From Syntrophomonadaceae bacterium (lineage in GTDB: Bacteria > Bacillota > Syntrophomonadia > Syntrophomonadales > Syntrophomonadaceae), in contig JAAYNQ010000136.1 of the NCBI GenBank assembly GCA_012520725.1, forward strand, positions 1 to 35,919: 35,919 bases of DNA, written 5' to 3'. Below are positions 22,489 through 27,270 of the stretch, piece by piece. How positions within the stretch are numbered: the stretch's first letter is position 1; each line of letters begins with the position of its first letter. Below the pieces are notes generated by a model that worked only from the letters and a program-made list of their open reading frames with translations, had not been told where the DNA came from and searched no databases. The translations under genes and the position numbers were made by a program.

Positions 22489-23808
<1,320 letters not shown>

Positions 23809-23854: not shown

Positions 23855-23935
23855 TGAGCGAAGCGAAACAAGATTGTGGTCCTGGATGGGCTTCCTTAGC
23901 CCGACTGAGCGCAGCGAAACAAGATTGTGGTCCTG
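23855..23935 (+). repeat. Pair of 30-bp direct repeats downstream of serS
   Basis: Units at 23855-23884 and 23906-23935 start TGAGCG and end GATTGTGGTCCTG, with a single base difference (A or C at the seventh base). They are 51 bp apart start to start, and the flanks also resemble each other weakly (CTTACTTAACC versus CTTCCTTAGCC). It looks like a local duplication. GGGCT/AGCCC between them could form a short hairpin. No coding potential is apparent. Confidence 0.85.
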
Positions 23936-23960: not shown

Positions 23961-23989
23961 TTGACATAGAAATAGCCGTGTGCTATACT
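23961..23989 (+). promoter_or_regulatory. Promoter of the tRNA-Ser/Arg-tadA operon
   Basis: TTGACA (23961-23966), a 17-bp spacer and TATACT (23984-23989) make a strong sigma-A promoter, about 40 bp upstream of the first tRNA. No other promoter is evident up to the terminator at 25220, so six tRNAs and tadA are probably one transcript. Confidence 0.9.
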
Positions 23990-24028: not shown

Positions 24029-24118
24029 GGAGGGGTGTCCGAGCGGTTGAAGGAGGCGGTCTTGAAAACCGTTGAACCTTTGCGGGTTCCGTGGGTTCGA
24101 ATCCCACCTCCTCCGCCA
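24029..24118 (+). tRNA. tRNA-Ser (anticodon TGA)
   Basis: A 90-nt cloverleaf with the acceptor GGAGGGG pairing CTCCTCC, discriminator G, encoded CCA, a long variable arm and GTTCGAATC in the T arm. Anticodon TGA is at 24063-24065 in loop CTTGAAA. It reads UCA and, with wobble, other UCN codons. Confidence 0.98.
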
Positions 24119-24134
24119 TTATATAAAAAGTCAC

Positions 24135-24228
24135 GGAGAGATGGCCGAGTAGGCTGAAGGCGCTCGCCTGCTAAGCGAGTAAGCGGCTAATAACTGCTTC
24201 GAGGGTTCGAATCCCTCTCTCTCCGCCA
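24135..24228 (+). tRNA. tRNA-Ser (anticodon GCT)
   Basis: A 94-nt class II tRNA with acceptor GGAGAGA/TCTCTCC, discriminator G, encoded CCA and a long variable arm. Anticodon GCT is at 24170-24172 in loop CTGCTAA. It reads AGC and AGU serine codons. Confidence 0.98.
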
Positions 24229-24278: not shown

Positions 24279-24355
24279 GCGCCCGTAGCTCAGCTGGATA
24301 GAGTGACAGGCTACGAACCTGGAGGTCGGGGGTTCGAATCCCTCCGGGCGTGCCA
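24279..24355 (+). tRNA. tRNA-Arg (anticodon ACG)
   Basis: A 77-nt tRNA with acceptor GCGCCCG/CGGGCGT and encoded CCA. Anticodon ACG is at 24313-24315 in loop CTACGAA. A34 of this tRNA is the classical substrate of the bacterial deaminase TadA, which makes inosine so that CGU, CGC and CGA can be read. tadA is encoded in the same operon. Confidence 0.98.
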
Positions 24356-24434
24356 TATTTATATTGCTGACTAAAAAGCAATAAAGGAAAACCTTGGGGT
24401 TTTCCTAATTTACTGTTAAAACCCCAGAAAACAT

Positions 24435-24511
24435 GCGCCCGTAGCTCAGTAGGATAGAGCAACGGTTTCCTAAACCGTGTGCCAGGGGTTCGAGTCCCTT
24501 CGGGCGCACCA
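24435..24511 (+). tRNA. tRNA-Arg (anticodon CCT)
   Basis: A 77-nt tRNA with acceptor GCGCCCG/CGGGCGC, encoded CCA and anticodon CCT at 24469-24471 (loop TTCCTAA), reading AGG. The tadA ATG begins 2 nt after its CCA end. The spacer to the preceding tRNA contains two mutually exclusive hairpins (24385-24406 and 24395-24426). Confidence 0.98.
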
Positions 24512-24512
24512 T

Positions 24513-25028
24513 ATGGTGGTGATTCCCATAAAGAGGGATGAAGAATATATGGGCCTTGCACTGGAATTGGCTTGCCAAGCTGGCGAAAAGGGTGAAATTC
24601 CAGTAGGAGCAGTTGTAGTGCTTGAGGATGAAATAATTGCCCGAGCCTACAACGAGAAAGAACTACGACAGGATGCTACTGCCCATGCAGAATTACTGGC
24701 TTTGCAGCGGGCAGCTGAAAATACCGGCAGTTGGCGTTTGAACCTTGCCACATTATATACTACCCTGGAACCCTGTCCCATGTGTGCCGGAGCTATGGTG
24801 AACGCCCGCTTGGGCAGGTTGGTGTATGCAGTTCGAGACCCTAAGGCGGGAGCTGCTGGAACCGTTCTGGATATTGTCAGAACCCCGGGCTTGAATCATC
24901 AGGTTCAGGTTAAGGAGGGAGTATTGCGGGAAGAAGCTGCCCAACTACTAAGCAAGTTTTTTGATAATTTAAGGAGAGATGGCCGAGCTGGCCGAAGGCG
25001 CTCGACTCGAAATCGAGTAGGCGGCTAA
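24513..25028 (+). CDS. tadA: tRNA-specific adenosine deaminase TadA
   Basis: TadA deaminates A34 of tRNA-Arg(ACG) to inosine. From ATG 24513 the product has 171 aa. The zinc site is His58 with catalytic Glu60 in AHAE, plus Cys88 and Cys91 in PCPMCAG. The C-terminal helix SKFFDNLRR is typical. The start is uncertain: ATG 24513 and GTG 24516 or 24519 all give a reasonable N-terminus, and none has a normal ribosome-binding site, because tRNA-Arg(CCT) ends at 24511. The reading frame continues 56 nt into tRNA-Ser(CGA). Residues from about 154 on, an Arg/Gly-rich tail ending RNRVGG, are therefore encoded by tRNA sequence. The enzymatic core is intact. Confidence 0.93.
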   Translation: MVVIPIKRDEEYMGLALELACQAGEKGEIPVGAVVVLEDEIIARAYNEKELRQDATAHAELLALQRAAENTGSWRLNLATLYTTLEPCPMCAGAMVNARLGRLVYAVRDPKAGAAGTVLDIVRTPGLNHQVQVKEGVLREEAAQLLSKFFDNLRRDGRAGRRRSTRNRVGG

Positions 25029-25066
25029 TCACCGCCTCGTGAGTTCGAATCTCACTCTCTCCGCCA
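24973..25066 (+). tRNA. tRNA-Ser (anticodon CGA), overlapping tadA
   Basis: A 94-nt class II tRNA with acceptor GGAGAGA/TCTCTCC, discriminator G, encoded CCA and a long variable arm. Anticodon CGA is at 25008-25010 in loop CTCGAAA, reading UCG. The first 56 nt also encode the end and stop codon of tadA (TAA at 25026-25028). Confidence 0.97.
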
Positions 25067-25110: not shown

Positions 25111-25205
25111 GGAGAGGTGGCTGAGTATGGCTGAAGGCGCTCGATTGGAAATCGAGTAGGGGGTTAATAGCTCTCTCGCGGGTTCGAATCCCGCCCTCTC
25201 CGCCA
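25111..25205 (+). tRNA. tRNA-Ser (anticodon GGA)
   Basis: A 95-nt class II tRNA with acceptor GGAGAGG/CCTCTCC, discriminator G and encoded CCA. Anticodon GGA is at 25147-25149 in loop TTGGAAA, reading UCC and UCU. UCC is the specifier codon of the T-box upstream of the serine genes, so this is its expected ligand. Confidence 0.98.
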
Positions 25206-25219
25206 TTAACGAATTAGCA

Positions 25220-25254
25220 AGGGGTTTCAGGCTTAGAGCTGGAACCTCTTTTTT
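25220..25254 (+). terminator. Intrinsic terminator of the tRNA operon
   Basis: An 11-bp stem (25220-25230 with 25239-25249, two G-T pairs) is followed by a T-run ending at 25254. It lies 15 bp after tRNA-Ser(GGA). Confidence 0.93.
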
Positions 25255-25374: not shown

Positions 25375-27270
25375 ATGGGCTTCTTTAAGCAGGGCAGCAT
25401 AATGGAGGGTCTAAGGACTGAATATCCAGAAAAATTTACCTCGGCAGATAAAGCGTTTAAGAATATTCAACGTGGAAACAAGATATATATCGGGACCGCA
25501 GCTGGCGAGCCAAAACACCTGGTAAGATCTTTGATGGAATATTTAAACCAGAATCCACAGGCCTTTTTTGATGTTGATATATATCATGTATGGACTCTGC
25601 TGGATGACAGCGATGTTTTTTTTGAGAAATATAAGCGTAATTTTAGAATCAAGTCCTTTTTTATAGGAGATACCAATAGAGATGCCATCAATAAAGGAGA
25701 TGCTGATTACACTCCTGTTTTTACCTCCCGTATACCCAATTTGTTCGAACGCAAAGTTTTTCCCATTGATATCGCTTTGGTTCAGGTCTCTCCACCAGAT
25801 GAGCACGGATATTTTAATTTAGGGGTAGGGGTTGATATTACTAAAGCCGCCGTAGAAAACGCCGGACTGGTAATAGCTCAGGTCAATTCCTATATGCCGA
25901 GAGTTCATGGAGATGGATTCATCCATATAAATGACATAGACTACATTATTCCTTATGATGAACCTTTGCCTGAGTATGATTTTGGGAAAGAAAGCGAAAT
26001 AGCCTTACAAGTCGGCCGGTATGTGGCCAGTTTAGTCCGGGACGGGGATACTCTTCAGATAGGTTATGGCCATATTCCATTGGGTGTATTATCCTGTCTG
26101 AGCCATAAAAGACACCTGGGTATACATACCGATCTCATAACCGATGCTATTGTCGATTTAATAAAAAAAGGGGTTATTGATAATAGCAAAAAAAGCATAA
26201 ACAAGGGAAAAACCATTGGAACCTACTGCTTGGGCAGTAAGCAAACCTATGACTTTGTTAACAACAATCCCTCGATTGAGCTCAGAAGAATAGACTATGT
26301 AGATAATCCTATGACCATAGCTCGACATAACAAGATGACGGCTATAAATACCGTGCTGCAGATGGACCTGACCGGGCAAGCATCAGCCGAAACCCTGGGC
26401 AGTGTCTTTTATAGCGGGATTACTGGATTCGCCAATTTTATCCGGGCTACCCTGCTGGCTAAACAGGGGAAAATCATCATAGCCATGAAATCCACAACCA
26501 GGAATGGGGAGGTTTCCAAAATAGTACCAACTTTGACCAAGGGCGCCGGGGTAAGTCTGCATCGTGGTGATGTGCAATATATAGTAACCGAATACGGCAT
26601 AGCCTACCTGCAAGGTAAGAATCTGCGGGAACGAGCTATGGAATTAATAGCCATTGCCCACCCCAAGTTCAGGCCCTGGCTTATTGAAGAAGCCAAAAAG
26701 CTGAATCTGATTGACCAGAAACAGAAATTCGTTCCCGGACCCAGAGGGAAATACATGGAAGAATATGAAGCACATAGAACCACCAAAACCGGCTTGGAGC
26801 TATTGTTAAGGCCTATCAGAATCAGCGATGAGACCCGGGTGCGGGAATTCTTTAATTCCCTTTCCGATAAAAGTTTGTATTTAAGATTTTTTACCCCCCG
26901 GGCTTATGTTCCCCATGAAAGCCTGCAGGATATTATTACTGTAGATAATGCCAAAGGGGTATCGATTTTGGCCATAATTCAGGGAGAAGAGGATGACTAT
27001 GAACAGGTGGTAGGGTTGGGACAATACTTCATAAATGATAGCGATTATTCAGCCGAGGTCAGTTGTGCCACTAGTGATAATTACCAGAACAATGGAATAG
27101 CTTCGGCATTGCTCACTCATTTAAGCTATTTGGCTCAGAAAAATGGATTGCTGAGCTTTACCGCCTCGGTCTTGGCGGAAAACCGGTCTATGGTTCGGGT
27201 ACTGAAAAATATAGGCTTTGTTCATAAGAGTTCCTCTGAAGGAGTTATAGAACTGGAAAAACTGTTCTAA
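25375..27270 (+). CDS. Acetyl-CoA hydrolase/transferase family protein fused to a GNAT domain
   Basis: Residues 1 to about 460 form a family I CoA-transferase/hydrolase of the 4-hydroxybutyrate/acetate CoA-transferase type. Segments include PPDEHGYFNLG (141-151), LQIGYGHIPLGVL and VTEYGIAYLQGK. Residues about 470-631 form a GNAT acetyltransferase domain, with the acyl-CoA loop at QNNGIASALL. The fusion occurs in other anaerobes. It could move CoA between acyl groups in acetate or butyrate metabolism and sense or use acyl-CoA. Where related transferases have the catalytic Glu (HTE/HSE), this protein has Asp253 in GIHTDLITD, and GFANF replaces the usual GGQxDF. ATG follows GAGGAGG. It appears to be monocistronic. 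Confidence 0.88.
   Translation: MGFFKQGSIMEGLRTEYPEKFTSADKAFKNIQRGNKIYIGTAAGEPKHLVRSLMEYLNQNPQAFFDVDIYHVWTLLDDSDVFFEKYKRNFRIKSFFIGDTNRDAINKGDADYTPVFTSRIPNLFERKVFPIDIALVQVSPPDEHGYFNLGVGVDITKAAVENAGLVIAQVNSYMPRVHGDGFIHINDIDYIIPYDEPLPEYDFGKESEIALQVGRYVASLVRDGDTLQIGYGHIPLGVLSCLSHKRHLGIHTDLITDAIVDLIKKGVIDNSKKSINKGKTIGTYCLGSKQTYDFVNNNPSIELRRIDYVDNPMTIARHNKMTAINTVLQMDLTGQASAETLGSVFYSGITGFANFIRATLLAKQGKIIIAMKSTTRNGEVSKIVPTLTKGAGVSLHRGDVQYIVTEYGIAYLQGKNLRERAMELIAIAHPKFRPWLIEEAKKLNLIDQKQKFVPGPRGKYMEEYEAHRTTKTGLELLLRPIRISDETRVREFFNSLSDKSLYLRFFTPRAYVPHESLQDIITVDNAKGVSILAIIQGEEDDYEQVVGLGQYFINDSDYSAEVSCATSDNYQNNGIASALLTHLSYLAQKNGLLSFTASVLAENRSMVRVLKNIGFVHKSSSEGVIELEKLF

Follow-up and report, generated by a model that had tools for sequence, protein, structure and literature searches.

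In a 35,919-nucleotide stretch of DNA from a Syntrophomonadaceae bacterium (the window), the gene for the tRNA-editing enzyme TadA runs directly into the downstream gene for tRNA-Ser(CGA) on the same strand and ends at a stop codon inside it. The arrangement is real, conserved throughout a family of anaerobic bacteria and, judging from comparison of genomes, apparently translated; its use as a cell control is unproven. Taken together, translation of the frame into tRNA-Ser(CGA), transcription of tadA from a tRNA operon and an either-or fate for each transcript form a reading that we hold to be reasonably probable. We found no report of a tadA/tRNA overlap among open-access papers, and the pair is a second, independent one beside the single published bacterial case we found of a reading frame entering a tRNA (selB/selC). 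The protein concerned is an essential-type tRNA-editing enzyme, the layout persists across an order, and there is comparative evidence for selection on a stop codon inside a tRNA, so that one DNA stretch is both tRNA and coding sequence. The system allows a clean test of tRNA processing and translation competing on one bacterial RNA, and annotation pipelines that forbid overlap between coding sequences and tRNAs would truncate or drop tadA here.

Layout of the locus and the TadA product

The cluster is read from the + strand in the order serS, tRNA-Ser(TGA), tRNA-Ser(GCT), tRNA-Arg(ACG), tRNA-Arg(CCT), tadA, tRNA-Ser(CGA), tRNA-Ser(GGA) and a terminator-like hairpin, with the following features:

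22534-23808, + strand: serS, heading the cluster upstream of the tRNA genes
23961-23989, + strand: sigma-70-type promoter TTGACA-17-TATACT with extended -10 (11/12 match)
24029-24118, + strand: tRNA-Ser(TGA) (ARAGORN)
24135-24228, + strand: tRNA-Ser(GCT) (ARAGORN)
24279-24355, + strand: tRNA-Arg(ACG), the expected TadA substrate (ARAGORN)
24385-24406, + strand: hairpin between tRNA-Arg(ACG) and tRNA-Arg(CCT), a weak terminator-like or processing element (fold)
24435-24511, + strand: tRNA-Arg(CCT), CCA encoded (ARAGORN)
24515-24522, + strand: Shine-Dalgarno-like GGTGGTGA, matching the GGYGGTGA conserved in relatives (start-region comparison)
24513-25028, + strand: tadA reading frame from the ATG chosen in the earlier note to TAA (open reading frame, family model, start-region comparison)
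24972-25025, + strand: tRNA-encoded TadA tail RRDGRAGRRRSTRNRVGG, counted from the junction codon, two bases of which belong to the tRNA (translation and relatives' junctions)
24973-25066, + strand: tRNA-Ser(CGA), overlapping tadA by 56 nt (ARAGORN)
25026-25028, + strand: tadA stop TAA in the variable loop of tRNA-Ser(CGA), tRNA nt 54-56, kept in relatives
25111-25205, + strand: tRNA-Ser(GGA) (ARAGORN)
25219-25250, + strand: terminator-like hairpin at the cluster end (sequence scan)

The earlier note, made from the window's letters alone, had placed the tadA stop 56 nt inside tRNA-Ser(CGA), with the last 17-18 residues being tRNA sequence, and this is confirmed: no stop interrupts the frame between 24513 and the TAA, the codon AGG at 24972-24974 straddles the junction, and 17 further codons lie wholly within the tRNA. 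tRNA-Ser(CGA), the tRNA that overlaps tadA, is single copy in the window's genome, and the codon it reads is rare, UCG accounting for 4.8% of the serine codons in genes of the window. Two further features were noted nearby: a direct repeat of ~30 bp (gagcgaagcgaaacaagattgtggtcctg / gagcgcagcgaaacaagattgtggtcctg), seen by eye at 23857-23935 between serS and the tRNA operon promoter, and, at 25375-27270, a CoA-transferase (butyryl-CoA:acetate CoA-transferase-like, below the model cut-off) fused to a C-terminal acetyltransferase-like domain.

The product matches the NCBIfam equivalog NF008113 at 183.6 bits (cut-off 150), which identifies it as TadA, the tRNA adenosine(34) deaminase. The zinc deaminase motifs HAE and PCxxC are present, and H53, E55, P82, C83 and C86 are invariant in 38 sequences. 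The predicted structure (pLDDT 91.5) has the fold of solved TadA enzymes, its best match being 2b3j at 0.6 Å over 150 columns. A PF00383 search shows that the overlapping gene is the sole TadA of the window's genome, the remaining matches being a cytidine deaminase, a ComEB-like deaminase (below that model's cut-off) and a RibD-like protein, this last assigned by length and a weak match alone.

The tail of TadA is predicted to be disordered (pLDDT < 50 for model residues 155-166), which speaks against a structured, functional tail. It carries 7-8 arginines, and Bacillus subtilis TadA (7cph) also has a basic C-terminus, which aligns with the start of the tRNA-encoded tail; these features would suit an arginine-rich extension with a function such as tRNA binding. 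Against such a role stand the predicted disorder, a change of R to L in one lineage, a tail consisting of RRDG only in the relatives with a shorter, 14-nt overlap, and the many TadA proteins that have no tail at all. Moreover, the sole tail site at which the tRNA permits variation swaps freely among A, V and D, indicating no constraint on the tail as protein. We thus regard a functional tail as highly improbable; the tRNA-coded residues, as modeled, are probably a disordered, dispensable basic extension.

At the other end of the gene, the earlier note had put the tadA start 2 nt after tRNA-Arg(CCT). The geometry is correct but its biological meaning doubtful: ATG 24513, one base beyond the CCA, is in frame, yet it lacks a Shine-Dalgarno sequence and relatives do not conserve it. 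Relatives carry GGYGGTGA a few bases past the CCA, and its TGA is often in frame; in at least nine of them this TGA closes the frame at the spot of ATG 24513, so that their tadA must start downstream, and among relatives sharing the layout about one in two has an in-frame stop between CCA and start. Their start is ATG, GTG or TTG, usually followed by AGG GAT GAA, about 14-21 nt past the CCA. The conserved start position reads ATA in the window (24528-24530), ATT in the sister genome G003 (L006) and ATA in genus g13 (L017, L018); no stop closes the upstream frame in the window or in G003. Based on these sequences, the window's tadA may start either leaderless at 24513 or at an AUA at 24528 served by the Shine-Dalgarno sequence. 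The standard start codon has apparently been lost after a conserved Shine-Dalgarno sequence at each of these loci, where non-standard tadA starts are possible. The suggestion that 3' maturation of tRNA-Arg(CCT) leaves a near-leaderless tadA mRNA is weakened, since most relatives have a Shine-Dalgarno sequence between CCA and start and many have a closed upstream frame.

The join in relatives and the stop codon inside the tRNA

We searched 63 genomes of the window's order for the locus and found the junction complete in 48, of which 27 have the 56-nt form, 11 the 14-nt form and 10 no overlap. The 56-nt form spans 17 genera of the order. The base and frame at which the TadA core (FFxxLR) passes into the tRNA are identical in all 38 overlaps, with zero spacer, whereas other spacings in the cluster vary widely. 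D-stem position 12 of the tRNA separates the two forms: U12 creates an in-frame UGA and a tail of RRDG-stop, while C12 leaves the frame open to the variable loop, with a tail beginning RRDGR[A/V/D]G. The 14-nt form stops at this D-stem TGA; besides the 11 genomes of the order, it is present in a further family (f16), in which gene order is the same as in the window's order. When 398 genomes of the phylum were searched for the pattern, the join turned up in 19, all from the window's order or from f16. Occurrence of the same join in 27 genomes excludes an assembly or frameshift artefact, and the overlap is kept in relatives, the outcome that the earlier note's reading required.

Because a tRNA is conserved for reasons of its own, we used paralogous serine tRNAs from the same genomes as controls, scoring the homologous variable-loop triplet, which lies in a part of serine tRNAs that can vary freely. 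In the 56-nt class, the triplet at nt 54-56 of tRNA-Ser(CGA) is a stop in 26 of 27 genomes (23 TAA, 2 TGA, 1 TAG), which share ancestry and are far from 27 independent cases; the remaining genome reads GAA TAA, its stop having moved by one codon to nt 57-59 (a 59-nt overlap). The same triplet is a stop in 13 of 23 tRNA-Ser(GCT) and 11 of 25 tRNA-Ser(GGA) genes of the overlap genomes and in 14 of 30 tRNA-Ser(CGA) genes outside the 56-nt class. Fisher tests for stop retention against these tRNAs give p between 1e-3 and 3e-5, values that ignore phylogeny and are weakened by shared ancestry. Mapping on the TadA tree gives at least 21 changes in the variable arm of tRNA-Ser(CGA) and one change of its stop state, compared with 15 and 18 arm changes and 5 and 6 stop-state changes in the two paralogues; within-genome paired stop counts favor tRNA-Ser(CGA) by 9:0 and 12:0. 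We found no genome whose frame enters the tRNA but ends elsewhere, so the stop result is not created by the definition of the class. The D-loop points the same way: position 20a, at which U would make an in-frame UGA, is C in 27 of 27 tRNA-Ser(CGA) genes of the class and U in 22 of 22 scored tRNA-Ser(GCT) genes from the same genomes, a pattern that taken alone could be inherited. Retention of the stop in tRNA-Ser(CGA) while the paralogues lose the triplet argues that the tadA frame is translated through the tRNA to the variable-loop stop. This constraint, as read from the genomes, points to translation and not to either-or control.

The overlap has been lost in at least six lineages, so it is dispensable and any coupling to RNase P is not indispensable. 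Three genomes of genus g17 that have lost it carry an altered D-loop. Remnant tRNA tails persist after tRNA breakage at loci L146 and L129; at L146 (genome G072), the tRNA is broken, yet tadA still ends RRDG-stop. Apparent absence of tadA from G001, G006, G013 and G033 was not counted as loss; G001 and G033 match strongly to the first part of the cluster only, making a contig break likely.

Several side observations concern the same junction. The tRNA-Ser(CGA) behind tadA resembles an integration site at L168 and L169 (G120, contig C59) and at L146, where tadA retains RRDG-stop and the tRNA is broken past the anticodon arm (CTCGAAAT/...). G120 also has, 2.2 kb downstream, a second stretch of ~200 bp that copies the tadA 3' end and tRNA-Ser(CGA) sequence before the contig breaks off. 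At L148 (G018), an in-frame TAG within the tadA catalytic domain marks a pseudogene or an assembly error. Overlaps of 10-15 nt between tadA and tRNA-Ser(CGA) also occur in distant Bacillota and Chloroflexota (L044, L077, L102), where they apparently arose independently.

Transcription, processing and the question of selection

The TTGACA-17-TATACT site is the only strong promoter before tadA in the window, and nearly all relatives in which the operon start is covered have this promoter directly before tRNA-Ser(TGA). Between it and tadA, no second site matching at 10/12 was found in nearly all 56-nt genomes. With one strong promoter and no other before it, tadA should ride on the tRNA transcript; the gene lacks space for a separate promoter and would be carried on a single RNA comprising tRNA-Ser(TGA)-Ser(GCT)-Arg(ACG)-Arg(CCT)-tadA-Ser(CGA)-Ser(GGA). 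Several lineages lacking the 56-nt form do have a separate tadA promoter. A dedicated promoter, TTGACA-N17/18-TACAAT, stands directly before tadA at L028, L031, L034, L119, L120, L142 and L143, unlike in nearly all 56-nt genomes. Processing conflict would be avoided if tRNA-Ser(CGA) were transcribed from an internal promoter of its own, for which a GATAAT hexamer noticed by eye at the end of tadA, immediately preceding the tRNA, could speak; transcription from this hexamer would begin too late to include the whole tRNA, and on the + strand no promoter within tadA reached the scan threshold. We consider such a promoter very unlikely.

In B. subtilis, RNase P matures tRNA 5' ends and 3' exonucleases trim CCA-encoded tRNAs (PMC10100781). 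By analogy, an RNase P cut at the 5' end of tRNA-Ser(CGA) would remove the tadA stop, and 3'-to-5' trimming from the new end toward the CCA of tRNA-Arg(CCT) would consume the tadA RNA; conversely, ribosomes translating the last part of tadA would prevent the tRNA from folding. Each transcript would thus yield either tRNA or a complete TadA message, with full-length TadA made only from uncut RNA, and this either-or fate would hold TadA low despite the strong promoter. The earlier note had proposed that RNase P cleavage leaves a nonstop tadA RNA and that one transcript cannot give both mature tRNA and a complete TadA message; the proposal gains support by inference, because a canonical cut before G1 of tRNA-Ser(CGA) would remove the stop. 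A search for tmRNA in the window's genome gave none over the cut-off, and SmpB matches over its first 36 positions only, the match starting 6 bases from a contig end; three sister genomes have tmRNA, so nonstop rescue exists in the genus, and the missing tmRNA is likely an assembly gap.

An either-or fate for each transcript, which we infer, is common ground between two accounts of why the overlap persists. The overlap could be a selected regulatory switch that couples TadA dose to RNase P capacity or tRNA supply, slow processing leaving more uncut transcript and thus giving more TadA. The deep conservation of the exact join would fit such a switch, as would the absence of a separate tadA promoter from overlap genomes while some other lineages have one, the presence of the TadA substrate tRNA-Arg(ACG) in the same operon and the analogous model published for selB/selC (PMC8124441). 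On the other hand, at least six lineages have dropped the overlap, tRNA-Ser(CGA) is not a TadA substrate, and no sensing element was found. One candidate element, in which the tadA end pairs with the acceptor strand of the tRNA, looks strong when the window sequence is folded; disruption of the acceptor is not conserved even within the genus, and the pairing is no stronger than in synonymous resamples (median p 0.43, 56-nt class).

Alternatively, the overlap may be a passive ratchet in which close packing joined the genes and stop triplets of the tRNA happened to end the frame without benefit, escape requiring a rare insertion that adds spacer and stop together. This account shares its anatomy with our best explanation and differs on whether the arrangement was selected. 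Serine tRNAs commonly have stop triplets in the D stem and variable loop, small independent tadA/tRNA-Ser overlaps (10-15 nt) exist in other phyla, and losses are tolerated, all of which fit passive packing. The stop and open D-loop are nevertheless better kept than in the paralogues, which indicates constraint on the frame, although a ratchet that needs a working stop is compatible with this. Given the six or more losses, the unconstrained disordered tail and the failed pairing control, we rate a regulatory switch as unlikely and take passive, translated overlap, to which we give nearly even chances, as the main rival. A fuller proposal for Syntrophomonadaceae-like bacteria holds that the tadA message is a by-product of the tRNA operon, that on each transcript a race between ribosome and RNase P decides whether tRNA-Ser(CGA) and tRNA-Arg(CCT) mature or a full TadA message results, and that selection keeps the in-tRNA stop for the sake of a dosage device; we put it forward as doubtful. 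No evidence was found that the balance between tRNA and TadA message is sensed or regulated.

Comparison with other tRNA-mRNA arrangements

Ordinary mixed tRNA-mRNA operons of bacteria, such as E. coli tRNA-tufB, place tRNAs and a protein gene on one transcript, with spacers between them; they resemble the tadA case in the shared transcript and differ in those spacers. Mitochondrial overlaps differ in another way, as the tadA case lies on a bacterial chromosome, with no polyadenylation known to complete stop codons. In mitochondrial tRNA punctuation, as with tadA, mRNA and tRNA come from one transcript and compete for shared nucleotides, an example of such overlap being cox1/tRNA-Lys of Armadillidium (cited in PMC8124441).

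The closest parallel is selB/selC, in which tRNA-Sec is nested in or overlaps the selB 3' end (PMC8124441). In both cases a same-strand reading frame runs in phase into a downstream tRNA, and remnant tRNA tails are left after rearrangement (L146 and L129 for tadA). The stop is also fixed inside the tRNA among relatives, at tRNA nt 46-48 in the partial form of Dyella and Luteibacter (PMC8124441) and, for tadA, at nt 54-56 or, in the one exception, nt 57-59. The same model, a nonstop mRNA after RNase P cleavage and hence alternative expression, is a hypothesis in both; for selB/selC, lowered full-length protein through tRNA maturation was likewise proposed as a hypothesis (PMC8124441). The two cases differ in the relation of tRNA to protein: tRNA-Sec is the partner of SelB, whereas tRNA-Ser(CGA), an ordinary serine tRNA, has C34, is not an A34 substrate and is not the partner of TadA, whose expected substrate tRNA-Arg(ACG) sits two tRNA genes upstream of tadA. 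The tadA case further differs in that the protein is a tRNA A34 deaminase, tRNAs lie on both sides of its gene, two nested stop positions (14 and 56 nt) exist, and conservation of the stop was measured against paralogous tRNAs.
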